A DNA stretch of 64,000 bases from Salsuginibacillus kocurii DSM 18087 (GTDB lineage Bacteria; Bacillota; Bacilli; Bacillales; Marinococcaceae). Position 1 is the first letter of the stretch, and each line of letters starts with the position of its first letter. Positions 49,359 to 62,076 of the stretch are shown here, one piece after another. The stretch covers positions 310,001 through 374,000 of the forward strand of contig NZ_KB898623.1 of assembly GCF_000377705.1 (NCBI RefSeq), given 5' to 3'. The notes below the pieces were generated by a model. It did no database searches, was not told the DNA's origin, and saw only the letters and a program-made list of their open reading frames with translations. A program made the position numbers and the translations under genes.

Positions 49359-50128
49359 GACTCTGACACCTGCTTTGTAAGTAAAGTTGGAATTAATGTT
49401 TGCGCTTCACCTAATGATTGTTGTTGAATAAAAAACAATTGGCGAATTCCTTCTTCTGCAAGGTCTAATAATACATTCATTTCTTTTCTTGAGAAGGTTG
49501 CCTCTTCCCCTGAACCTTGCATCTCTACAAATTCTCCATTCCCGGTCATAACTACGTTCATGTCCACATCTGCATTCGCATCTTCCTTGTAACACAAATC
49601 GAGCAGTTCACCTTTTTCCGGGTCAACACCTACTGAGACTGCTGCTAAATAATCTTTAATAGGAGAAGTTTTGAGTGTTTCATTTTTCATTAGCTGATGA
49701 ATCGCTAAAGTCATTGCTACAAAAGCTCCTGTAACAGAAGCTGTACGCGTGCCTCCATCGGCTTGTATAACATCACAATCGACCCATATAGTCCGTTCAC
49801 CAAGAGCTTCAAGGTCGATTACTGCCCGTAATGCCCGGCCGATTAAACGTTGAATTTCCATAGTTCGACCCGTAAGCTTTCCCTTAGCAGCTTCGCGAAT
49901 ATTTCTTTGCTCTGTAGCCCGTGGCAGCATGGAATATTCAGCCGTGACCCAACCTTGTCCCTGCCCTCTCAAAAAAGGAGGAACCTTAGCTTCCACACTA
50001 GCTGCACAAATTACTTTAGTTTCTCCAACAGTTATTAAAACAGAACCTTCTGGGTGTTTCAAATAATCCGTTTCAATTGTTAGTGTCCGTAGTTCATCTG
50101 CTTCCGTTCGATCATCTTCACGCAGCAT
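49355..50128 (-). CDS. rph: RNase PH
   Basis: Phosphorolytic 3'-5' exoribonuclease that trims tRNA 3' ends. Starting at the ATG at 50128 (AAAGGTGGT upstream) it is 257 residues: RPH core with [16 protein letters not shown] near 62, [17 protein letters not shown] near 88 and [20 protein letters not shown] near 115. A 305-base gap, with the gerM terminator, lies upstream. Confidence 0.95.
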
Positions 50129-50371
50129 AAATGATATGACCACCTTTTTTTATTTTTTGTGGCTGCTGTTAATACCTAGCAGTGATAAATGTAATGCTAC
50201 CTAGAATGAGCGCATTCATTACCGCTTTGTTGCTTTGTCATTACAATGGGAGCTTATCCACCTTACGATTTAACACCTTTGTATAATAAACACTCATACT
50301 AAACTTGTCGTATGATCCGGTTCAGTAATCTACCTTAAGCTAGATTATGCAACTCCTAGTGAAACTGAAAA

Positions 50372-50393
50372 AAAGGCAGCATAGCTGCTACCT
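50372..50393 (-). terminator. gerM terminator
   Basis: 9-base arms AAGGTAGCA / TGCTGCCTT (one G-U pair) with loop GCTA and then TTTTT on the minus strand, 40 bases after the gerM stop. The rest of 50129-50433 shows nothing else. Confidence 0.85.
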
Positions 50394-50433
50394 TGTAAAA
50401 TGTACTCTTCATTATAGCAAAAATAAGTCAACA

Positions 50434-51549
50434 TTACATGTCTGCATAACCTGAGACACTCACATCATTACGATTAACAGGTTCTGCAATGACTTCGCCT
50501 GCAACACTTTTAACTTCTTCTACCCCATCCACAGCAATTGCAATATCCTCTACTTCCTCTAATTCAGTAAGTGAGAGCACGAGCATATCCAAAGAGGCTT
50601 GAGAAACACTGTCTTCTTGATTTAATAATGCTTCATTAAACTGAAGATGAAGTACTCCATCATCGAGTTCAGGCTCTGAGGTTAATTCAGTTTGAGGTAC
50701 AAAGTCAGAAGCTAAATTCCAGGTAAGGTCAGGGCCATTTACAAGCTCCTCAACAATCGCTTCCACTTTATTATTGACATCCTCTATTCGGCGAGTAACT
50801 GGCACATATGAAGGCCCTTCCTCTCCATCAACAGCAAAGTACAAGGTATGCGCTTCACTTGCCGCAACATCCACTGTTCCTGCATCTTCCATGTTTATAC
50901 CATTTGAACGCGTCCATCCTTCTCCAACTGGCGTTTCTGCCACAGGCATCGTCGACTGTTCATGCCCATTTATTTGGAATTTCACCTTATCAACACTATC
51001 ATATTGAGTTAATGTCCACGTTACAGCTTGCAGCATGACCTCTTCTCGCTCTTCTGGATACTCTTCAATATCATTTGAAAAGTCCACCGTAGCCGTACCA
51101 TCCTCATCAAGGTCTACTCCTTGAATTTCCGTACCTGGTGGCAACACTGGCTGCAGCCCATCTGGCAGCATTGGTGTAACCGGTCCATCCATGACCAGGT
51201 GTTCTAATGATTGCTTTAACACGCCTTCTTCCTCAGGAAGTTGAAAACTACGAGGTACGACCATGCCTTCATCATCTAGAAGATAAAGCTCGCGTTCAAC
51301 CTGAGCACCATCGTCTAACCCCTCATCTATTTCTTCATCCTCGATTAAGTCTTCCTCATCAAACTCTAAGTCATCTTCTTCACTTGACCAATCTCCTTCT
51401 TCCCAGCTGGTCAAATCCTGTTCTTCCATACCTTCCTCATCTTCATCTAGCAGGACATTTTCCTCTTCTTCACCAAACCCACAACCTGCAATTAAGCCAG
51501 TAAAGACAAGTGAACTTGCCATAAATACTGGAATATACGTTTTTTTCAC
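50434..51549 (-). CDS. gerM: GerM, spore lipoprotein with two GerMN domains
   Basis: Lipoprotein needed for sporulation-septum processing and germination. Signal peptide with lipobox LIAGC at about residues 19-23; a strikingly acidic region at about 28-80; then two GerMN domains (TATVDFSNDIEEY near 150 and VLHLQFNEALLNQ near 300). 371 residues. Start is GTG at 51549, eight bases after GGGGG. The acidic insert is longer than I would expect and may point to a salt-adapted lineage. Confidence 0.9.
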   Translation of the reverse strand: MKKTYIPVFMASSLVFTGLIAGCGFGEEEENVLLDEDEEGMEEQDLTSWEEGDWSSEEDDLEFDEEDLIEDEEIDEGLDDGAQVERELYLLDDEGMVVPRSFQLPEEEGVLKQSLEHLVMDGPVTPMLPDGLQPVLPPGTEIQGVDLDEDGTATVDFSNDIEEYPEEREEVMLQAVTWTLTQYDSVDKVKFQINGHEQSTMPVAETPVGEGWTRSNGINMEDAGTVDVAASEAHTLYFAVDGEEGPSYVPVTRRIEDVNNKVEAIVEELVNGPDLTWNLASDFVPQTELTSEPELDDGVLHLQFNEALLNQEDSVSQASLDMLVLSLTELEEVEDIAIAVDGVEEVKSVAGEVIAEPVNRNDVSVSGYADM

Positions 51550-51693
51550 AGTCCAATCCCCCTTTAGACAGTTTGTACGACATATGTACGTGCCTAAAGA
51601 GAGAAATAGACCAGCATATTAGCATCAATTGTAGAATTTCAAGTTACGGCCCATGCTATTTTATGTTTTTAAAGAGAAAGGAAAGGATCACGC

Positions 51694-52503
51694 TTAGGAA
51701 GATGTCGCCAGGCTGACGCTGGTGACGACCATTTGAATATCAATACCCATCCAGCGTTTGGCAATTTGTTGAAAGTGTGTAGGAGACCCTGTCGTTAAAA
51801 ACGAATGCTTTGGTTCTCCTTTTTCTGTATACAAAAGATCATGGTGATATAAAAGGGTACTAACTTCCCTGGCTGTTTCCTCACCTGAAGAAATGATATG
51901 AATATCAGGACCCACCGCTTCCCTGATCGCATCATACAAAAGCGGATAATGTGTACAGCCTAAAATAAGCGTGTCAAAATCTAAATTATTTAAAGAGGAT
52001 AAGCCATTACGTACAGTTTCTAAAGCCTCAGACCCTGCAAAAACACCTTTTTCAACTAAAGGTACAAAAGCAGGACAAGCTAAAGCTTTAACTTGTATAG
52101 TTGGATGAATACTGCGGAGAGCTTCATCATAAGCTTGACTATTAATCGTACCTTCTGTGCCAATGACAGCTACTATATCCCTATCCGTAACTTTCAAAGC
52201 AGCAGTAGCTCCAGGGTGAATGACGCCAATAACAGGAATTGAAAGTTCTTCTTTCACTTCTTCTAATACAAAAGCAGTTGCTGTATTGCAGGCAATGACC
52301 AGCATTTTAATATCTGCTTTTCTCAGCTGCGCAATCATCTCCCATGTGAACCTGCGCACTTCCTCAATCGGTCGCGGTCCATAAGGACACCTAGCCGTAT
52401 CCCCTATATAAATCATTTGTTCTTTTGGAAGTTGACGCGAAATTTCTTTAGCTACTGTTAATCCGCCAAGTCCTGAATCAATAACACCTATCGGTCGGTT
52501 CAA
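51694..52503 (-). CDS. murI: Glutamate racemase (RacE/MurI)
   Basis: Supplies D-glutamate for peptidoglycan (and poly-gamma-glutamate where made). 269 residues, with [17 protein letters not shown] at the start and the two catalytic cysteines in [11 protein letters not shown] near 73 and [12 protein letters not shown] near 184. Start codon is TTG at 52503, six bases after GAGGGG. Flanked by ysmB and gerM as in B. subtilis. Confidence 0.96.
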
Positions 52504-52538
52504 TGTTGTCCCCTCAATTTCTTATGAATTAGTAACGC

Positions 52539-52988
52539 TTAACGCTCATATGCGTGTTCACTTTCCATTTCCCGGTGCAAAGAAGCTAATATTTTTTCTA
52601 ACTGATCGACTTCTTGCTCAGAAAAGTCTTCAAGAACTTCCGATAAATAATCCTGTCTTTCCTTTACCACTTCTTGAATAATAGTTTTTCCTTTTTCAAG
52701 CAAATGAATACGGACCACGCGCCGGTCTGATTTATCTTTTATTCGTTCTACTAAATCATTTTTTTCCATACGGTCAACCAAGTCTGTTGTCGTACTACAT
52801 GCTAAATACATTTTATTCGACAACTCCCCAATTGTCATATCTCCTTTTTCATGAAGCCATTGTAACGCCACAAATTGTGGGGGAGTAATCGGAAATTGAT
52901 TTAGTATCTCACGTCCTCGCTGCTTTACAATGTAAGCAATTCTTCGGAGCGATTTTTCAACATTGGCCACTTGACGTTTATCTGTCAT
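52539..52988 (-). CDS. ysmB: MarR-family regulator (YsmB-like)
   Basis: A 149-residue winged-helix regulator. MarR fold with the recognition segment MTIGELSNKMYLACSTTTDLVDRMEKNDLVER and wing KSDRRVVRIHL. Ligand and targets unknown. GGGAGGAG before the ATG. 35 bases upstream of murI, so probably co-transcribed; the placement matches ysmB from memory. Confidence 0.85.
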   Translation of the reverse strand: MTDKRQVANVEKSLRRIAYIVKQRGREILNQFPITPPQFVALQWLHEKGDMTIGELSNKMYLACSTTTDLVDRMEKNDLVERIKDKSDRRVVRIHLLEKGKTIIQEVVKERQDYLSEVLEDFSEQEVDQLEKILASLHREMESEHAYER

Positions 52989-53094
52989 GTGAACTCCTCC
53001 CTCTTCATATCAGCATGCTTTATTATAAATGTAGGCTAACGAAACATTGCAAGTCCATCTTCATTCTGCCCGTTTTCAAAACCAAATGCAAGAA

Positions 53095-53352
53095 AGAAAA
53101 GCGGAGGGCGCCTGAACATTGGCGCAGGGCCCTTCTTCACCGCCGAGGAGGCTGTTGCCGCCGCAGCGCCGGGAAAAGGGATCACAAGCCAATGGCGCCC
53201 GCAGCTAGACATAGAAAAGCGGAGGCGCCTTGCTCAGAGGCGACAAGTTTTTCAGCATCTGAGCAGCGTGGCTTGCCGCGCGGAGTCAGAGGCAGAAAAA
53301 TCCTCGAGCCTCTAGGCGCCCGGAGCTAGACAGAAAAGCTGAAAGCACCTTA
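53095..53352. repeat. Tandem GC-rich palindromic repeats (two full copies and a partial third)
   Basis: Copy 1 is 53095-53212 and copy 2 53213-53332. Each begins AGAAAAGCGG followed by a G-rich start and GGCGCC, and ends GGCGCCC, then G(C/G)AGCTAGACA. A third degenerate start, AGAAAAGCTGAAAGCACC, follows. The GGCGCC blocks at both ends of each copy are complementary and give long hairpins. GC content is far above the flanks. From memory this AGCGGAGGCGCC ... GAGCTAGAC element is common between genes in Bacillaceae. The open frame reading through it is an artefact. Confidence 0.8.
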
Positions 53353-53375
53353 CCACTTCTTAACCGTTAAAAAAA

Positions 53376-53395
53376 CCGCCCAGTAGCCTGGACGG
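53376..53395 (-). terminator. ptsI terminator
   Basis: 8-base arms CCGTCCAG / CTGGGCGG (one G-U pair), loop GCTA, then TTTTTTT on the minus strand, 27 bases after the ptsI stop. Confidence 0.9.
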
Positions 53396-53422
53396 CTTTT
53401 AGCAACACTGAGCGTCAATGCG

Positions 53423-55147
53423 CTATACGTTTAACAAACCTTGTTCCTTTATGAACTGTTCAACTTCACTAGACGTTTTTTTATTCAATACCTCATTGGC
53501 CAGTGGCTGAACGTCTTCGTAAGCTAAACCGCGAACTTGGGTACGAGCCGGAAGGATAGAAGTAGCGCTCATGCTAAATTCATCTAGTCCTAGCCCTAGA
53601 AGTATAGGGACAGCTGTTTCTTCGCCAGCCATTTCTCCGCACATCCCGACCCACTTTCCTTTTTCATGAGCTGCATCAATCACTTGTTTGACCAGGCGCA
53701 AAATCGCCGGATGATAAGGCTGATACAAATGCGATACTTTTTCACTCATGCGGTCTGCTGCCAACGTATATTGAATCAAGTCGTTAGTACCTATGCTGAA
53801 GAAATCAACTTCATCCGCAAAGAGGTCTGCCGCAACAGCTGTAGAAGGGATCTCAACCATGATGCCTAGTTCAATCTTTTCGGCAATCTCATGACCTTCT
53901 TCTTTTAAGTTGCGCCATTCCTCATCGAAGATTGCTTTTGCTTCTCTAAACTCTTCAATAGTGGCTACCATCGGGAACATGATTTTTAGGTTGCCAAAAG
54001 CACTCGCACGAAGCAAGGCTCGCAACTGTGTTTTAAACATATCGGTTTCTTCAAGGCATAAACGAATGGCTCGGAAACCTAAAAATGGGTTTAGTTCTTC
54101 CGGTAGGTCTAAATAAGGAAGGTCCTTGTCCCCACCAATATCTAAAGTCCGGATGACTACCGGCTTATTTTCCATCTCCGTTAAGACTTTTTTATAAGCT
54201 TCAAATTGCTCATCTTCACTTGGAAGCTCATTTCTTCCCATGTATAAAAATTCGGTACGGTATAACCCAATACCTTCAGCTCCGTTATTCAATACCCCTT
54301 CTAAGTCATCAGGCGTACCAATATTTGCAGCGAGTTCAACTTGATGGTTGTCTGTTGTAATTGAAGATTCGTTTACAACTTGTTTCCATTTTTCCTTTTG
54401 CTGTAAAAAACCTTCTTGTTTTTTCTCGTACTCTTCAACAACTGCACTGTCCGGATTAACAAAGACAGCTCCTTCAATTCCATCTATAATTAACAAATCG
54501 CCTGTTTTCACTTGTGCTGTGACCTCTTTTGTCCCTACAACCGCAGGGAGTTCAAGGGAACGTGCCATAATAGCAGAATGCGATGTACGTCCGCCAATAT
54601 CGGTAGCAAAGCCTAGCGTGTAGTCACGGTTTAACTGAGCTGTATCAGATGGCGTTAAGTCTTCAGCAATAACGATCGATGTATCTTTAATCCCAGCTAG
54701 GCTTGTATTTTCTACGCCAAGCAAGTGCAGCATCACACGCTTAGAGACATCTTGAATGTCTGCAGCACGTTCTTGCATATATTCATTATCCATCTCTTGA
54801 AACATCGTGACAAACATATCTGTAACGTCTTTAAGTGCGCTCTCTGCATTAATCTTTTCGTCGCTTATTTTTGATTCCACTGCTTTAAGCAGCTCTGGGT
54901 CATCAAGGACGAGTAGGTGAGCTGCAAAGATTTCTGCATTTTCCTCACCTTGTTCTTCCAATGTTTTAGCTTTTATCTCTTCAAGCTCTTCTTTCGCTTT
55001 CCCAACTGCAGAACGGAAGCGCTCACTTTCAGCAGCAGGATCTTCAACGGATGTTTTTTCTACTGTCATATCTGGTTGTTCAAGAACAAAAGCTTTAGCA
55101 ATTGCAATCCCTTTTGAAGCCGCAATGCCTTGCAGTTGGTTAGCCAT
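53423..55147 (-). CDS. ptsI: Enzyme I of the phosphotransferase system
   Basis: Transfers phosphate from phosphoenolpyruvate to HPr, first step of PTS sugar uptake. 574 residues. The phosphorylated histidine is in [15 protein letters not shown] near residue 190; the C-terminal barrel has [12 protein letters not shown] near 293 and the catalytic cysteine in [12 protein letters not shown] near 502. Its ATG overlaps the ptsH stop (TAATG). Only ptsHI are present; no enzyme II gene is next to them. Confidence 0.97.
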
Positions 55148-55410
55148 TACTCTCCAAGCCCCTCTTTAACCACTTCTTCAATCGCGGCAATCGCTTCCTC
55201 TTCATCATTTCCTTCAACGGTAATTGTAACTTCAGCTCCTTGTCCTACACCTAATGACATAACACCCATAATTGATTTTAAGTTTACTGATTTTCCGTTA
55301 TATTCCAATGTTACATCAGAAGAAAATTGGCCCGCTTTATTTACTAGTTGTGTAGCTGGTCTGGCATGAATACCTGTTTCACTTGTGATTTTGAAGTTTT
55401 TTTGTTGCAT
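55147..55410 (-). CDS. ptsH: HPr, phosphocarrier protein
   Basis: Small carrier that passes phosphate from enzyme I (on His15, in [12 protein letters not shown]) to sugar-specific EII proteins, and when phosphorylated on Ser46 (in [11 protein letters not shown]) acts as corepressor with CcpA. 87 residues from the ATG at 55410, which follows AAAGGAG; the frame start at 55437 is not used. Its leader contains a RAT/terminator switch about 200 bases upstream. Confidence 0.97.
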
Positions 55411-55613
55411 ATTGTCCAACTCCTTTAGTTTTATCAATTATTGTCATCAACTTTATTCATTCCCTTACGTGTGCTTTTAATCAACATGATTTTGCTAGTT
55501 TTCATTAAAAACTGACTATCTTTCCTGTTTCCGATCGTATGATGACTTGCTTATGGTGTTTATCCCTTACCATTGCATAATTATTGTCTGCACTCTCATT
55601 AGGATTTCCCATT

Positions 55614-55702
55614 AAAAAAGGCACGAGTACCACAACAAGTTACTTTTGTAAGGTTTGCACTTAAAGTGCGCTCACTTACTTGTTCTTGTTTGTACTCATG
55701 CC
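55614..55702 (-). terminator. Attenuator hairpin in the ptsHI leader
   Basis: On the minus strand GGCATGAGTAC (55702-55692) pairs with GTACTCGTGCC (55630-55620), followed by TTTTTT. The 61-base interior holds further pairing (ACAAGT / ACTTGT and a GCACTT / AAGTGC hairpin). Its 5' arm overlaps the RAT at 55692-55723, so the two structures exclude each other. It could also end gerE transcription. Confidence 0.75.
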
Positions 55703-55723
55703 TGATCGAGTCAGTAACACGTA
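55692..55723 (-). promoter_or_regulatory. GlcT-type RAT antiterminator target
   Basis: The minus strand reads ACGTGTTACTGA, CTCGA, TCAGGCATGAG, in which CTGA and TCAG close a small loop. From memory this closely matches the ribonucleic antiterminator of the B. subtilis ptsG leader, bound by the BglG-family protein GlcT. It overlaps the 5' arm of the terminator at 55702. No ptsG or glcT lies between it and ptsH. Confidence 0.7.
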
Positions 55724-55760
55724 AAGTTGAATGTTGTTTGTTGATGATTTATCTAGACTT

Positions 55761-55789
55761 AATGTAGCACACCCCTTCTGTTTAAGCAA
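55761..55789 (-). promoter_or_regulatory. ptsHI promoter
   Basis: TTGCTT (55789-55784) and TACATT (55766-55761), 17 bases apart on the minus strand, four of six matches each. It would start transcription near 55754, about 30 bases before the RAT. The gap 55790-56008 towards gerE shows nothing else clear. Confidence 0.5.
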
Positions 55790-56008
55790 GTGTTTTCCAT
55801 GAATAGGACTTTAAAACAGTAGTCTTTTCTTTCAGTTTGTTCCCTCACTCGGACCCTATTCAATTACAGTAAAAGAACACAGGTATTTATCACCTGCCAC
55901 TTACATTAAACCGGCTAAGAAACTGACCATCTGATTAGAAGGTGTAAAAGGGTTGTACCCATCAGCACATTAGGGAATGTGGTTTGCTGTTTATGATAAA
56001 ACGAGCTA

Positions 56009-56233
56009 TTAAATGCGGAGCTCCCCCATGCGGATCAATTCAATCACAGCTTGAGAACGCCCCTTTACTCCAAGCTTTTGAATGGTGTTTGATATATGGT
56101 TTCTCACCGTTTTTTCGCTGATAAATAATTTATTTGCGATATCTTTTGTTGTATGATCTTGAACGAGTAATTCAAAAACTTCACGTTCCCTTTTAGTCAA
56201 TAACTGGCGCGGACTTCGCTCCATATCTGTCAA
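56009..56233 (-). CDS. gerE: GerE, late spore-coat transcription regulator
   Basis: A 74-residue LuxR-type helix-turn-helix protein that tunes sigma-K-dependent coat genes in the mother cell. LLTKREREVFELLVQD, FISEKTVRNHISNTIQKLGV and GRSQAVIELIRMGEL are nearly the B. subtilis sequence as I recall it. The start is TTG at 56233, about seven bases after AGAGGGTGA; the ATG at 56224 would be 15 or more bases away. A 260-base gene-free gap lies upstream. Confidence 0.95.
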   Translation of the reverse strand: MTDMERSPRQLLTKREREVFELLVQDHTTKDIANKLFISEKTVRNHISNTIQKLGVKGRSQAVIELIRMGELRI

Positions 56234-56456
56234 CGTATTTCACCCTCTCCTCCTAGCTGAACTCACACAAAAACAAAATCATAACGCTTCCTCTTTAGCG
56301 TTCATTTCATTTTATGAGAAAAAAGGACTGACGTGACAGGAATTGGCGTACTTAGACGAATGTTGTCCATTAAATCCGGCCTAATTTTTCAAAATAAACA
56401 CGCTGCCGACTTCTTTCGCCTAGAGAGTAGAAGAACGTTGGGGATAACTAAAAAAA

Positions 56457-56483
56457 CTGAGCCACCATGAAAAAGTGACTCAG
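56457..56483 (-). terminator. sdh operon terminator
   Basis: 9-base arms CTGAGTCAC / GTGGCTCAG (one G-U pair), 9-base loop, then seven T on the minus strand, ten bases after the sdhB stop. Confidence 0.85.
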
Positions 56484-56493
56484 GAGCTTCTTA

Positions 56494-57252
56494 TTATTTA
56501 TCGCTACCAAAAAAGCTTTTGAATGACTGCACTGTCATTTCTCGATTTAATGCAGCAATAGACGTCGTTAATGGAATTCCTTTTGGACAGGACTGCACAC
56601 AATTCTGAGAGTTACCGCAGTCTTGCAGGCCTCCCTCTCCCATTAATGATTCAATACGTTCTTCCTTGTTCATTTCCCCAGTTGGATGTGAGTTAAATAG
56701 ACGGACTTGAGACACAGCTGCCGGTCCAATAAATTCTGAATTGTTGTTAACGTTAGGACATGCTTCAAGGCAAACTCCACACGTCATACATTTTGAAAGC
56801 TCGTAAGCCCATTGGCGCTTGTTTTCAGCCATTCTAGGTCCAGGCCCAAGGTCGTATGTCCCATCAATTGGAATCCAGGCTTTAACTTTTTTAAGAGAGT
56901 CAAACATACGGCTTCTGTCAACAATCAAATCGCGAACAACAGGAAATGTTTTCATTGGTTCTAGGTGAATCGGTTGTTCTAGATTATCAATCAATGCTGT
57001 ACAGGATTGGCGGGGCTTTCCGTTAACCACCATCGAACAAGCTCCGCAGACTTCCTCCAAGCAGTTCATATCCCAATTGACTGGAGCCGTTTCTTTTCCT
57101 GCTGCATTCACCGGGTTGCGGCGAATTTCCATTAAAGCAGAAATCACATTCATATTGGCACGGTATGGAATCTCAAATTCTTCCGTGTAAGACTCCTCTT
57201 CTGGACTGTCTTGTCTGGTTATAATAAATTTCACTACGTTGTTTTCACTCAT
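56494..57252 (-). CDS. sdhB: SdhB, succinate dehydrogenase iron-sulfur subunit
   Basis: Carries electrons from SdhA to menaquinone via three iron-sulfur centres. 252 residues. The [2Fe-2S] ligands are in CLEEVCGACSMVVNG near 65-75, the [4Fe-4S] and [3Fe-4S] ligands in CMTCGVCLEACPN near 157 and CVQSCPKGIP near 217. Its ATG overlaps the sdhA stop by four bases. Confidence 0.97.
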   Translation of the reverse strand: MSENNVVKFIITRQDSPEEESYTEEFEIPYRANMNVISALMEIRRNPVNAAGKETAPVNWDMNCLEEVCGACSMVVNGKPRQSCTALIDNLEQPIHLEPMKTFPVVRDLIVDRSRMFDSLKKVKAWIPIDGTYDLGPGPRMAENKRQWAYELSKCMTCGVCLEACPNVNNNSEFIGPAAVSQVRLFNSHPTGEMNKEERIESLMGEGGLQDCGNSQNCVQSCPKGIPLTTSIAALNREMTVQSFKSFFGSDK

Positions 57253-59030
57253 GATTTACCAGCTCCTTGCTTGTCACCCGCTTTTGCCTTTGAATAGTCA
57301 CGTTTACGCGGTGTGATGAGTGAGACATCAACATCTTCATATTCGAATTTCGGCCCGCCTTTTTCTTGGTCAAAGCTAGCCTTAGTAGTCTTTAAGAAGT
57401 TTTCATCGTCACGGTCAGGGAATTCAGGCTTATAATGAGCGCCGCGGCTTTCGTTACGATTATAAGCACCCATTGTAATAACTCTGGCCAGGTGAAGCAT
57501 TCCATCAAGTTGCCGCGTAAAGGAAGCTGCTTGGTTGTTCCAGCGGCCGGTATCATTAATATTGATATTTTCCCAACGCTCCATGAGTTCTTGAATTTTT
57601 TCATCTGTTTTTAATAAGTTTTCATTTTCACGTACTACTGTTACGTAATCCGTCATCCATTCACCGAGCTCTTTATGAAGCTGGTAGGCATTTTCTTTCC
57701 CGTCCATTTTCATAATTTTGTCGTTGAATGCTTGTTCTTCTTTCTCTTTCTCCTCAAAGATAGAAGACGACAGATCTTCAGCAAGGTAATCTAAACCTTG
57801 CATATATTCCACAGCTTTTGGTCCAGCTACCATTCCGCCATAAATGGCAGATAGTAAGGAGTTGGCTCCTAATCGGTTTCCTCCGTGCTGGGAATAATCA
57901 CATTCGCCTGCAGCAAACAAGCCTGGAATATTTGTCATTTGATCGTAATCAATCCAGAGACCACCCATAGAGTAATGAACAGCAGGGAATATCTTCATTG
58001 GTACTTTGCGTGGGTCATCCCCCATAAATTTCTCATAAATCTCCATGATGCCGCCAAGTTTAATGTCCAACTCTTGTGGGTCTTTATGAGAAAGGTCAAG
58101 ATACACCATATTTTCGCCGTTAATCCCTAGCTTTTGATCTACACAGACACTAAAGATTTCCCGAGTGGCAATATCACGTGGCACGAGGTTGCCGTAGGCC
58201 GGGTACTTTTCTTCTAAGAAATACCATGGCTTTCCATCTTTATATGTCCATACACGTCCGCCTTCGCCACGTGCAGATTCACTCATGAGGCGGAGTTTAT
58301 CATCACCAGGAATAGCGGTTGGATGAATTTGAATAAACTCTCCATTAGCGTAGGAAGCGCCTTGCTTATAGACAGCCCCCGCTGCGTACCCTGTATTAAT
58401 CATAGAATTGGTCGATTTACCAAATACAATACCTGGTCCGCCAGTTGCCATAATTACAGCATCACCGCGGAAGCTATAGGTTTCATGTGAAGATAAATTT
58501 TGCGCCGTAATTCCGCGGCAGCGTCCATCATCGTCCAGAACGGCCGAAAGAAATTCCCAATTTTCGTATTTCGTGACTAAGCCTGACACCTCATAACGGC
58601 GGACTTGTTCATCTAATGCATACAAAAGCTGCTGACCAGTGGTAGCACCAGCAAAAGCCGTACGATGGTGCTGGGTACCCCCAAAACGACGGAAGTCTAA
58701 TAAGCCTTCAGGCGTCCGATTAAACATTACTCCCATTCGATCCATCAAATGAATAATTCCTGGAGCTGCCTCGGTCATTGCTTTTACAGGAGGTTGATTC
58801 GCAAGAAAGTCCCCTCCGTAAACTGTATCATCAAAGTGTTCCCACGGGGAATCCCCTTCCCCTTTTGTGTTTACCGCACCGTTAATTCCGCCCTGTGCGC
58901 ACACTGAATGAGAACGTTTCACCGGAACGAGGGATAACAGGTCAACATTAACCCCTGCTTCCGCTGCTTTAATTGTTGCCATTAAACCAGCAAGCCCACC
59001 GCCGACAACAATTACTTTGCCGTTACTCAT
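57249..59030 (-). CDS. sdhA: SdhA, succinate dehydrogenase flavoprotein subunit
   Basis: FAD subunit oxidising succinate to fumarate. 593 residues. VVGGGLAGLMATIKAAEAG at the start binds FAD, KRSHSVCAQGGINGA near 40 contains the covalent FAD histidine, and LMSESARGEGGRVW near 248 is at the active site, with RLGANSLLSAIYGG near 383. Follows sdhC by 14 bases. Confidence 0.98.
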   Translation of the reverse strand: MSNGKVIVVGGGLAGLMATIKAAEAGVNVDLLSLVPVKRSHSVCAQGGINGAVNTKGEGDSPWEHFDDTVYGGDFLANQPPVKAMTEAAPGIIHLMDRMGVMFNRTPEGLLDFRRFGGTQHHRTAFAGATTGQQLLYALDEQVRRYEVSGLVTKYENWEFLSAVLDDDGRCRGITAQNLSSHETYSFRGDAVIMATGGPGIVFGKSTNSMINTGYAAGAVYKQGASYANGEFIQIHPTAIPGDDKLRLMSESARGEGGRVWTYKDGKPWYFLEEKYPAYGNLVPRDIATREIFSVCVDQKLGINGENMVYLDLSHKDPQELDIKLGGIMEIYEKFMGDDPRKVPMKIFPAVHYSMGGLWIDYDQMTNIPGLFAAGECDYSQHGGNRLGANSLLSAIYGGMVAGPKAVEYMQGLDYLAEDLSSSIFEEKEKEEQAFNDKIMKMDGKENAYQLHKELGEWMTDYVTVVRENENLLKTDEKIQELMERWENININDTGRWNNQAASFTRQLDGMLHLARVITMGAYNRNESRGAHYKPEFPDRDDENFLKTTKASFDQEKGGPKFEYEDVDVSLITPRKRDYSKAKAGDKQGAGKS

Positions 59031-59044
59031 GATTTATTCACTCC

Positions 59045-59674
59045 TTATATATTAGCCAAATCCGGATTAATAAAAGCTAAAATCGCTCGAATACCAACAA
59101 AAGACAAGACGACGAACACACCGATGCTCACGTAAGTCATAATTAGTTGAGAACGAGGTGTAATCGTAATCCCCCAAGAAACTGCAAATGACCATAATCC
59201 ATTTGCAAAATGGAACGTAGCAGAAAGAACACCGGCTATGTAGAATGCTAACATCCATGGACTACTCAAAATATCAGCCATCATATCATAGTTTACATCT
59301 ACCCCAAGTGCTGCCTGTACTCGTGTCTCCCATACGTGCCAGGCAATAAAGATAAGAAGAAACACGCCAGTCACTCGCTGAAGCAAAAACATCCAGTTTC
59401 TAAAATATCCATACCTTCTCGTGTTGTTTTTTCCCTGAAATACAATATAAAGACCGTAAATGGCATGATACAAAATAGGTAAGAAAATAATAAAAATCTC
59501 AAGTGCATACCGGAAAGGTAAACTTTCCATAAAGCTTGCCGCTGCATTAAATGAGCTAGCCCCGTAGACAGCAAAATGATTCACAATGAAATGCTGAATC
59601 AAAAAGATACCAATCGGGATCACTCCCAAAAGCGAATGCAATCTTCTGTTAAAATACTCGCGATTCTCAGGCAT
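59045..59674 (-). CDS. sdhC: SdhC, cytochrome b558 subunit
   Basis: Di-haem membrane anchor of succinate:menaquinone reductase. About 209 residues with five hydrophobic helices and conserved histidines in RRLHSLLGVIPIGIFLIQHFIVNH, LPILYHAIYGLYIV, FIAWHVWETR and TFHFANGLWSFA that ligate two haems. The ATG at 59674 behind GGGAGGAAG is the start; the frame opening at 59773 is not used. Haem supply comes from the hem operon of this same region. Confidence 0.95.
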   Translation of the reverse strand: MPENREYFNRRLHSLLGVIPIGIFLIQHFIVNHFAVYGASSFNAAASFMESLPFRYALEIFIIFLPILYHAIYGLYIVFQGKNNTRRYGYFRNWMFLLQRVTGVFLLIFIAWHVWETRVQAALGVDVNYDMMADILSSPWMLAFYIAGVLSATFHFANGLWSFAVSWGITITPRSQLIMTYVSIGVFVVLSFVGIRAILAFINPDLANI

Positions 59675-60042
59675 TGCCCTGCTTCCTCCCTGTAGGTGAA
59701 TTCTGTTAACTGGTTCCACTGTCCTCTTGCTATGTTGTTCCCCCAACTTCCAGGCAGCAGTGTTCTTTTGCAAAAAATGGACCCTGTCCGATTTTTGCGA
59801 AAAAAGAAAGTTGCACTGTAGAAACTCTTCTCTGTCCCGCCTGAAACGTCAACCCTCTATGGAATATGTAGAAAAAAACGTTGCAGCACCGCTATCAAGC
59901 ATATGTAATCCTTGCACTGAGCAAACGCTCATCATTCTGCACATACTCCTTCATAACTTCAAAAGAGAAATACTACGTTGTTGTTCCTTTGGGCTACAAT
60001 ATGAAGAGTACAATTTCCCCTGTTCAACATTCCGACACATTC

Positions 60043-60071
60043 ATTTTACTCCCCCCAGTTACCGACGTCAA
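60043..60071 (-). promoter_or_regulatory. sdhCAB promoter
   Basis: TTGACG (60071-60066) and TAAAAT (60048-60043), exactly 17 bases apart on the minus strand, one mismatch each. It implies a leader of about 360 bases before sdhC (59675-60036), in which I see no gene. Confidence 0.6.
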
Positions 60072-60127
60072 GAAAACGGATTCACTATATTGGCGGGAAT
60101 CATGCAATTTCCTATTCATTACATAAA

Positions 60128-60157
60128 GGAGAAATAGGTGTTTTCACCTATTCCCCC
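60128..60157 (-). terminator. Hairpin after the KtrB-type gene
   Basis: 13-base arms GGGGGAATAGGTG / CACCTATTTCTCC (two G-U pairs on the minus strand) with loop AAAA, 19 bases after the stop; the T-run (TTTATG) is weak. Confidence 0.65.
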
Positions 60158-60175
60158 TGCAGCAGACGCTTGAAA

Positions 60176-61528
60176 TCAACCAATAATCATGCGCTCTGTT
60201 GGATATTTATAATGTGTTTTTGTATCCTTTTTCTTCAACGAGAAAAGAAGCACTAAAATACCTACTCGCCCAATTAACATAAGTGTCATTAAAATAGCTA
60301 AGCTTGGGTTAGATAAATGTTCTGTTACGCCTGTAGACAGCCCGCATGTTCCAAAGGCTGAACTTGTTTCAAAAATGATATCATGTAATTCCACTTGGTC
60401 ATTACCTCTTTCAAAAGCAGCAATCCCCATAACAGCAGAAAAAAGCCCGACAATGAAAAAAGACAACACGATGAAAGCTTTTTGCTTGTCTTCTGGGTGA
60501 ACCTCTCGTCCAAACGCTTTAACATCGCTCTTACCTAGAGCAAAGCTTCGAATCGTTAAAAACATTACCGCAAGCGTGGTGGTCCGTATGCCACCACCCA
60601 CACTAGAAGGACTGGCTCCAATGATCATCAACCCAGAGATAAATAAAACCGTAACCAGGGTAAAACCCGACACATCAAGCACAGTCAAGCCTGCACTCCT
60701 TGAGGTGGCAGAAGTAAACATTGTTTGAAAAAATTGTTCATGCCAGGCAAGTCCTGCAAAATAATATCCTCTTTCTAAAAACCAGATACCCAACCACCCT
60801 AATACAAATACGAGTCCATAGGTAGTCACCGTGATTTTGGTAAACAAACTAAATTTGAAGTTTTCATTTGAAGGACGAAAGTACTCTCGTATTTCCATAA
60901 GTACAGGAAAGCCGATGGCCCCGGCAAAAATTAAAAGAACCGTAATAAACTGCACATAATAATCATTAGCGAAAGGGAGCAACGATTCACCAGTCACATC
61001 AAATCCTGCATTTGTAAAGGCCGACAACGCACCAAATGCCCCCTGATACATAGCCTCACTAAACGTGTCAAAATACTGGGTGTAATAGGACCCTAATATT
61101 AGTGCTCCTATACCTTGGATCATCAATGCTGTAAATAAAATCCCACGCATTAATTTCACCATACCTGAGAATTGATACTGGTTATGGTCGACCATAATTA
61201 ACAAGCGATGGCTTAAATTTATCTTTCGGCCTAATAACATCCACACAAAGGTCCCCAAAGTCATAATACCAATTCCACCAAGTTGAATGGCAACAGCAAT
61301 GACAAGAATTCCAATCCCGTTAAAGGTTTCGGAAACTGTGATAGTTACCAGTCCGGTTACACTAACAGCAGAAACGGCCGTAAACAAAGCATCCATATAT
61401 GTAAGCTCGCCCCCTGGTTGATGGGTTACAGGCAACCATAGCAAAATGCTTGCTACAAACATCGAAATTAAATACGCAACGATAATAATCCGAAATGGAG
61501 ACATAAATTGGTGCAATCCACGCCGCAT
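60176..61528 (-). CDS. KtrB/TrkH-family potassium transporter membrane subunit
   Basis: Potassium- (and possibly sodium-) translocating subunit of a Ktr system. About 450 residues made of four helix-loop-helix repeats. The four selectivity-filter loops are visible as SAVSVTGL near 60, SAFTNAGFD near 175, TSATSRSAGL near 300 and SSAFGTCGLS near 405, each keeping its filter glycine. The ATG at 61528 is preceded by AAAGGGCGG; the frame start at 61585 is less likely. No KtrA/KtrC regulatory subunit lies nearby, as for the unlinked KtrC/KtrD of B. subtilis. It is inserted between sdhC and yslB, where B. subtilis (from memory) has no such gene. Confidence 0.9.
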   Translation of the reverse strand: MRRGLHQFMSPFRIIIVAYLISMFVASILLWLPVTHQPGGELTYMDALFTAVSAVSVTGLVTITVSETFNGIGILVIAVAIQLGGIGIMTLGTFVWMLLGRKINLSHRLLIMVDHNQYQFSGMVKLMRGILFTALMIQGIGALILGSYYTQYFDTFSEAMYQGAFGALSAFTNAGFDVTGESLLPFANDYYVQFITVLLIFAGAIGFPVLMEIREYFRPSNENFKFSLFTKITVTTYGLVFVLGWLGIWFLERGYYFAGLAWHEQFFQTMFTSATSRSAGLTVLDVSGFTLVTVLFISGLMIIGASPSSVGGGIRTTTLAVMFLTIRSFALGKSDVKAFGREVHPEDKQKAFIVLSFFIVGLFSAVMGIAAFERGNDQVELHDIIFETSSAFGTCGLSTGVTEHLSNPSLAILMTLMLIGRVGILVLLFSLKKKDTKTHYKYPTERMIIG

Positions 61529-61644
61529 AAGAAACCGCCCTTTCTGAAACTCGCCATTTAGTATACCACCCATTCTTTTTCTCATCTATAGAGTTTGCTA
61601 GAAATTACCGCTATAATGGAAGGGGAAAGTGGGGGACTTACGCA

Positions 61645-62076
61645 ATGGAAGATAAAAAAGAGATGGAAAGCCCGGGACAAAAGTATTCTGATTTTGGTTA
61701 TGAGCTGGTCCGAAAAGAATTTCTGCAAGAACTTCTCGGCCAAGATGAAGGCGAGATATTATATTGGGGCGGGCGTGTATTAGCAAGAAAACACCCTGTA
61801 CACTCTCTTGAAGAAGTCATTCAGTTCTTCACCACAGCAGGGTGGGGGGAACTTCAACTAATAAAAGAAAGAAAAGAAGAGATGACGTTACAATTGTTGC
61901 TTCCAGAAGAACAAAAAAAACCGTTGTTTAACCGGCAGCTTGAAGCTGGCTTCTTAGCTGAACAAATAGAAACACAAAAAAATGCAGCAACAGAGACAGT
62001 TATCGTCGAAAAGAAGTACCGCATTGAATTCCATATCCATTGGAATCTCAAAGAAACAGTACTCTCTGACCAATAA
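61645..62076 (+). CDS. yslB: YslB, DUF2507-family protein
   Basis: A 143-residue cytoplasmic protein of the YslB family (DUF2507), with KYSDFGYELVRKEFLQELLG and ILYWGGRVLARKHPVHSLEE near the start, a fold related to V4R-type ligand-binding domains. Function unknown. GGGGGA lies eight bases before the ATG. Plus strand, divergent from the potassium transporter and convergent with uvrC; a TATAAT at 61612-61617 may be its -10 box. Confidence 0.85.
   Translation: MEDKKEMESPGQKYSDFGYELVRKEFLQELLGQDEGEILYWGGRVLARKHPVHSLEEVIQFFTTAGWGELQLIKERKEEMTLQLLLPEEQKKPLFNRQLEAGFLAEQIETQKNAATETVIVEKKYRIEFHIHWNLKETVLSDQ

Follow-up and report, generated by a model that had tools for sequence, protein, structure and literature searches.

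Why does an RNA switch of the kind known from ptsG stand directly before ptsHI, and which protein works it? HPr and enzyme I, the products of these two genes, are commonly regarded as constitutive, household components of the phosphotransferase system (PTS). In the window, that is, the whole 64,000-nucleotide stretch of DNA analysed here, from a genome that is probably that of a salt-loving Bacillus relative, the minus-strand leader at 55789-55614 carries a weak promoter, a ptsG-type ribonucleic antiterminator (RAT) and, overlapping it, a terminator; ptsHI follows after about 200 nt. A preliminary description held that ptsG had been lost or moved while its switch was kept, leaving GlcT in control of the general PTS proteins.

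The arrangement resembles the GlcT/ptsG system of Bacillus subtilis, in which, according to the accessible part of the source, a RAT overlaps a terminator, PTS genes lie downstream and a PRD antiterminator is inactivated by EII phosphate (PMC12445079). The core of the window RAT is likewise that of the ptsG RATs of relatives. Unlike that system, the window has no ptsG between switch and ptsHI and its genome no GlcT that could be found; the likely partner is an EIIA-linked antiterminator and the target is the general PTS proteins. An engineered ptsG deletion of B. subtilis that fuses PptsGHI to ptsHI also places the ptsG promoter region directly before ptsHI, although that arrangement is man-made and glcT still lies upstream (PMC3217849, from the part of the text available). 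In the open-licence literature, as far as its text was accessible, no report of a RAT directly before ptsHI was found, and such cases may be listed in subscription papers or regulon databases.

Anatomy of the leader

The putative promoter P1 (55761..55789, minus strand, as are all features of this leader) consists of a -35 element, TTGCTT, at 55789-55784, a 17-nt spacer and a -10 element, TACATT, at 55766-55761, preceded by TG. The RAT ACGTGTTACTGACTCGATCAGGCATGAGT, of the G.A class, occupies 55694..55722 and is recognized by a pattern match and by the core that it has in common with relatives. It is followed by an intrinsic terminator (55620..55702) with 11 contiguous base pairs at its base, whose 5' arm GGCATGAGTAC overlaps the RAT and whose T-run lies at 55614..55619, the whole spanning 55702-55614. 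These coordinates fit those first described to the base, as does the distance of about 200 bases to ptsH: the T-run ends at 55614 and the ptsH ATG is at 55410. The spacer between terminator and ptsH (55411..55613) holds no detected ptsG or glcT remnant and no clear second promoter. The gene that comes next is ptsH rather than ptsG; it occupies 55147..55410 and encodes an HPr of 87 aa (NCBIfam NF010352 149.6 bits, cut-off 110; Pfam PTS-HPr), followed by ptsI at 53423..55147, encoding an enzyme I of 574 aa (TIGR01417 803 bits, cut-off 342). Directly upstream of the switch lies a gene (56009..56233, minus strand) that we take to be gerE-like, a syntenic marker; going upstream from the RAT, its homologue is the first gene recognised in 10 of the 11 RAT-bearing genomes of the family, the window included.

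The terminator hairpin, 83 nt long, has a computed folding energy of -30.9 kcal/mol (z -6.1 relative to 100 mononucleotide shuffles), and the RAT 39-mer by itself one of -6.2 kcal/mol. Such a weak RAT beside so strong a terminator is what would be expected if a protein must hold the RAT in place. The full 176-nt stretch 55775-55600 stands out less (z -1.75 relative to dinucleotide shuffles). A simple terminator scan, allowing loops of 3-8 nt, missed the switch terminator; the sole site it listed is a small terminator-like hairpin at 55897-55879 (minus strand), upstream of the promoter, which is possibly the end of the gerE transcript. Rfam gave no match within window positions 50000-62000 at E values up to 1.

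The promoter described at P1 is where its coordinates place it, and related sites occur in relatives, although in the window it does not rise above chance. A sigma-70 scan of the leader returned nothing at the tool threshold, and aligned leaders were used in its place; a consensus promoter scan of the window preferred a site other than P1, with a score often reached by shuffles. In 9 of 11 family leaders the site that scored highest, TTGnnn-17-TGnTAnAAT, lies upstream of the RAT (individual shuffle p values from 0.015 to 0.33), and by eye P1 of the window and its counterpart in the congeneric genome G001 are degenerate forms of it.

A ptsG-type RAT comprises a lower stem, two internal loops split by two pairs, and an upper stem, CTGA/TCAG. 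The window RAT keeps the core and is a ptsG-type hairpin, with two deviations: its outermost upper pair is C.A, and the fourth pair of the lower stem is unformed; the C.A pair recurs in 7 of 17 distinct ptsHI RATs, and pairs 8-28, 9-27, 13-25, 14-24, 15-23 and 16-22 are kept in all 17. It is also the only match in the 3.83-Mb genome to a 22-base RAT pattern with up to 3 mismatches, for which a reversed control gave 0. A RAT covariance model, built from 42 RATs of five sorts that include the window RAT and its relatives, likewise found it alone (E 6e-9), with 150 of 956 first-look candidates scored. A looser 20-base pattern adds one match with 2 mismatches at C3:225 kb, and the pattern GTTACTGN{4,10}CAGGCA finds two besides the RAT; none of these three is reported by the RAT model, and all are taken as chance.

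Conservation and synteny among relatives

The order was surveyed in 101 genomes, our own included, from 47 families, of which 69 contain a RAT match within 3 mismatches. Scoring, for each of these, the best match and the first downstream ORF resembling one of 10 reference proteins gives a ptsG-like EIICB in 43 and ptsH in 20; an antiterminator-like ORF precedes the RAT in 42 of the 43 EIICB cases. Two of the remaining six stand before a mannose/sorbose-family PTS operon (G041, Pfam-checked, and G094, by likeness), and in G036, G051, G067 and G076 the best match is something else or chance. The 20 ptsH cases are spread over seven families (f1, f3, f6, f11, f26, f29, f42). Of these, 19 leaders were folded (G069 was left out), and all 19 have a RAT, an overlapping terminator with 8 to 20 contiguous pairs, and a T-run. 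This conservation settles the reality of the switch; its lack in close relatives would have spoken against the preliminary description, which on this count stands. In G001 both terminator arms have changed together, GGCATGAGGAGC with GCTCTTCATGCC. The 17 distinct ptsHI RATs and 20 distinct ptsG RATs have a common core.

The survey also turned up RATs in other company. At L320 (G041), L318 (G049) and L312 (G094), a ptsG-type RAT and a terminator-like repeat stand before a mannose/sorbose-family PTS operon, assigned by Pfam for L320 and L318 and by likeness for L312, so that GlcT-type control may reach other permeases. In G059, a perfect ptsG-type RAT (L319, about 2290) stands before a lone EIIA-glc gene, and the same genome has an antiterminator-RAT-EIICB locus.

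Within the family, 11 of 29 genomes have an exact match to the 20-base RAT pattern before ptsHI, always at one syntenic place: downstream of the sdh genes, from which gerE separates it in every genome except G002, and ahead of marR and/or racE (racE is visible in 10 of 11, and G019 shows marR only). None of the 10 reference genes lies near the five family matches with 2-3 mismatches that are located away from ptsHI (L052, L055, L057, L063, L064), and further matches with 1-2 mismatches occur in G009, G020 and G027. Gene calls around the RAT, ptsHI and antiterminator loci rest on BLAST to the 10 reference proteins. Fifteen of the 18 RAT-less family genomes have a clear ptsI at the same place, with racE or marR downstream in all 15 and sdhB in view in 13, and the RAT core is absent from the stretch read upstream of ptsH in each of the 15. 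The other three, G007, G010 and G015, gave no enzyme I matches or only weak ones and may have lost the sugar PTS.

Since ptsHI occupies this place with or without the switch, the switch has been lost or gained at a fixed ptsHI position. The arrangement is therefore old rather than the product of a recent ptsG loss, and nothing shows that ptsG was ever there; the proposal that ptsG was lost or moved around a retained switch is not supported. Nor was the suggested ptsG scar found between terminator and ptsH: a tblastn search of 55401-56010 with 73 antiterminators and 10 reference proteins, in which ptsG was represented only by the genome's own EIICB, recovered no ptsG or glcT remnant, its two matches (E 0.11 and 0.67 in an artificial search space) being taken as chance. 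The terminator-to-ptsH stretch varies from 105 to 266 nt among the 11 family leaders. Right after the window terminator there is a 35-aa ORF with its own ATG (55612-55505, minus strand), which is not conserved in relatives and is probably a chance frame. A ptsG-like EIICB with a GlcT-type gene is found elsewhere in the genome in 9 of the 11 family RAT genomes.

The antiterminator of the genome and its distribution

The genome encodes one protein in which a BglG-family domain was found (PF03123, E 1.6e-18), at G000:C6:232.9 kb and 281 aa long. Its architecture, a CAT_RBD followed by two PRDs (PF03123 65.5 bits; PF00874 in two stretches), is that of the BglG/SacY family, so the genome that carries the RAT also carries one antiterminator of the family. 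It is not GlcT by either measure applied, scoring 215 against a cut-off of 320 for NCBIfam NF047357 and falling outside the GlcT clade with support of 100/100 in a tree of 73 rows, and it also stays below the LicT cut-off (NF046042, 222.7 bits against 300). Judged by sequence it appears SacT/LicT-like, and its best solved relatives are BglG/LicT proteins. Four histidines, H98, H157, H206 and H268, presumably the phosphorylated ones, are invariant in 12/12 aligned relatives. An N9H change in the CAT domain marks 8 of 10 antiterminators of its branch and is absent from the window's own.

No GlcT was found in this genome, whose assembly is 99.88% complete in 23 contigs. The preliminary description had named the lack of a BglG-family GlcT as evidence against its own proposal; none turned up, but a BglG antiterminator of another branch is present. 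Its statement that ptsG and glcT are both lacking fits the neighbourhood and, for GlcT, the whole genome, but a ptsG-like EIICB lies at G000:C7:112 kb (TIGR02002 591.0 bits against a cut-off of 591.8), by eye before a nanE-like ORF and with no RAT found near it. The antiterminator gene follows the only EIIA-glc gene of the genome, with a terminator-like repeat between them by eye, and four permeases with a glucose-type EIIB, among them the ptsG-like EIICB, have no EIIA of their own (L002, L005 and L007 by NCBIfam, L006 by eye). The inventory thus comprises one antiterminator, one EIIA-glc adjoining it and one convincing RAT, that of ptsHI.

This antiterminator resembles LicT, SacT and SacY in its CAT RNA-binding domain and two PRDs, whereas the window RAT is of the ptsG class rather than GGATTG...GCAAGACC, the neighbouring gene encodes EIIA instead of a sugar-specific permease, and the target is ptsHI. 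A recurring RAT-EIIA-antiterminator-EIICB operon with an A.G-class RAT, read at many named loci (L164-L236), is found in Bacillaceae and Exiguobacterium. Here too EIIA stands beside a related antiterminator and the RAT has the same upper stem, but the inner pair is A.G where the window has G.A, and the RAT precedes the operon's own sugar genes instead of ptsHI.

Sixteen of the 29 family genomes encode 39 antiterminators in all. Of the 11 genomes with a ptsHI RAT, 10 have a member of the clade of the window's antiterminator, and of the 18 lacking that RAT none does; by genus, the RAT occurs in g1, g2, g3, g6 and g9 and the clade in g1, g3, g6 and g9. Among the RAT-less genomes, 17 of 18 also have no EIIA-linked antiterminator. 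The exception, G025, has one of a sister branch, with its own RAT before EIIA and none before ptsHI. With G025 counted as presence, the co-occurrence table of EIIA-antiterminator and ptsHI RAT reads 10, 1, 1, 17 (Fisher p 6e-6), and that of GlcT and ptsHI RAT reads 9, 2, 3, 15 (p 1e-3); both p values ignore kinship, and the family counts treat related genomes as separate.

Candidate regulators of the ptsHI switch

Taken together, these observations suggest that ptsHI is under protein-dependent antitermination, and that the EIIA-linked antiterminator at G000:C6:232.9 kb, not GlcT, is probably what exerts it; we infer the binding partner, its phosphorylation logic and its signal from gene content and co-occurrence. 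Transcripts from P1 would stop at the terminator (55614) by default. An active BglG-family antiterminator would bind and stabilise the RAT, using up the 5' arm of the terminator, and polymerase would then read on into ptsHI. As in the family of this protein, its two PRD domains would receive phosphate from EII/EIIA and HPr: idle PTS proteins would hold phosphate and keep the antiterminator phosphorylated and off, and sugar uptake would drain the phosphate and turn it on. The same logic applies to LicT. It is borrowed here from GlcT, a PRD antiterminator inactivated by EII phosphate (PMC12445079, in the part available). Because the adjoining gene encodes the only glucose-type EIIA and four permeases have none of their own, what the switch senses would be general PTS traffic, high traffic leading to more HPr and enzyme I.

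Several relatives bear on this assignment. In G056, G078 and G098, from two other families, an operon RAT-ptsH-ptsI-EIIA-antiterminator unites the proposed partners; G078 and G098 have no other antiterminator, so that a G.A RAT can probably be worked by an EIIA-linked protein, and G056 has an additional SacT-like one elsewhere. The antiterminators of these three sit elsewhere in the tree than the window's clade. Other genomes count against the EIIA-linked reading: G002 has the ptsHI RAT with GlcT and a further antiterminator type only, and none of the window's clade; the EIIA gene of G009 is not adjacent to the antiterminator but begins some 2.5 kb upstream of it; the RAT of G001 has a degenerate lower stem; and in G038 and G083 a ptsHI RAT occurs together with a GlcT that has its own RAT and with EIIA-antiterminators that have their own SacT-type RATs, so that no EIIA-linked antiterminator without its own RAT is left over.

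The RATs themselves speak in two directions. The inner lower pair is G7.A31 in all 17 distinct ptsHI RATs and all 20 distinct ptsG RATs, and A7.G31 in 32 of 33 distinct RATs near sister EIIA-antiterminators in the named genomes, a count that leaves out the 28 of 80 named loci without a RAT of the pattern. Hence either the window's branch has changed specificity or something GlcT-like binds. The upper stem, CTGAYNNRATCAG or close to it, recurs in ptsHI, ptsG and EIIA-antiterminator settings, and the RATs adjoining sister EIIA-antiterminators carry CTGAYNNRATCAG as the ptsHI RAT does. The family GlcTs (12 loci read) have their own RAT beside ptsG, whose upper stem is another one, CTGGTNANGCAG, with one base fewer in G024; the GlcTs of G030, G033, G038, G083 and G096 likewise lie beside a CTGGTNANGCAG RAT, and all GlcTs so placed form one clade. 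In the genomes read that have both a ptsG and a ptsHI switch, then, the two RATs differ in their upper stems. The specificity rules applied here are those of the BglG family, in which upper-stem differences usually keep RAT/antiterminator couples apart.

The reading put forward at the outset, in which the B. subtilis GlcT/RAT system lost ptsG but kept a GlcT that senses glucose and gates ptsHI, draws on the G.A class that the ptsHI RATs share with the ptsG RATs counted, on the finding that 9 of the 11 family RAT genomes have a GlcT, and on a GlcT-type gene right before the RAT and ptsHI in G030, G033 and G096. These last are second, fast-evolving copies with long branches and an unsure place in the tree. 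Yet GlcT was found neither in the window genome nor in G001, which refutes GlcT control for the window genome if its assembly is complete (the estimate is given above), and the distinct RATs beside ptsG in the family, the missing ptsG remnant in 55401-56010 and the GlcT-bearing genomes G012, G023 and G027, which have neither the window-type antiterminator nor a ptsHI RAT, all count against it, so that it is very improbable. A related possibility, compatible with control by the EIIA-linked protein, is that the ptsHI RAT is served by GlcT as well as by the EIIA-linked antiterminator in genomes that have the two, and that the window genome kept only the second. Both proteins occur in 8 of the 11 family RAT genomes, and G002 has GlcT without the EIIA-linked one; since the upper stems of the two RATs are consistently different, such overlap is rather unlikely.

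The switch might instead be a relic, deaf to antiterminators, that only damps ptsHI or is bypassed by an internal promoter driving most of its expression. In B. subtilis ptsHI has a strong constitutive promoter of its own and responds little to glucose, so that antitermination has a small effect on it (PMC12445079, from the accessible text). In the family, 7 of 11 leaders (L046, L048, L050, L051, L053, L054, L056) contain TTGACY-18-TATSTT between terminator and ptsH (individual shuffle p values from 0.17 to 0.48) and, after it, a shared site, TATGWAAGCGATATAA, seen by eye and presumably cre-like on the consensus we assume. A similar cre-like site was seen in the RAT-less leaders L135-L139. The weakness of P1 in the window would also suit a relic, whereas the kept RAT core, the intact terminator, the lack of a clear internal promoter in the window and the parallel absence of the EIIA-linked antiterminator from nearly all RAT-less family genomes make it unlikely there. 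The window, G001, G003 and G009 have no visible internal promoter and cre-like site, so the switch may be the main gate in these four.

If the EIIA-linked antiterminator is the partner, the history of the locus could be one of regulator exchange on a kept RNA switch. On this account, which we offer tentatively, the ptsHI RAT was ancestrally served by a GlcT-type protein, as the GlcT-type genes still right before RAT-ptsHI in G030, G033 and G096 would suggest, and passed to an antiterminator of another branch coupled to the hub EIIA, creating a dedicated feedback by which the level of HPr and enzyme I follows the combined flow through the glucose-type permeases. A similar hand-over would have taken place separately in the operons of G056, G078 and G098. 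Genomes of the family that carry the switch can be set beside others that lack it at the same place, and several relatives contain three or four RATs each, differing in upper stem and inner pair; this makes the insulation of couples, and the exchange of regulators on a kept RNA, directly testable. If HPr and enzyme I are gated by PTS phosphorylation, the import system as a whole would adjust itself.
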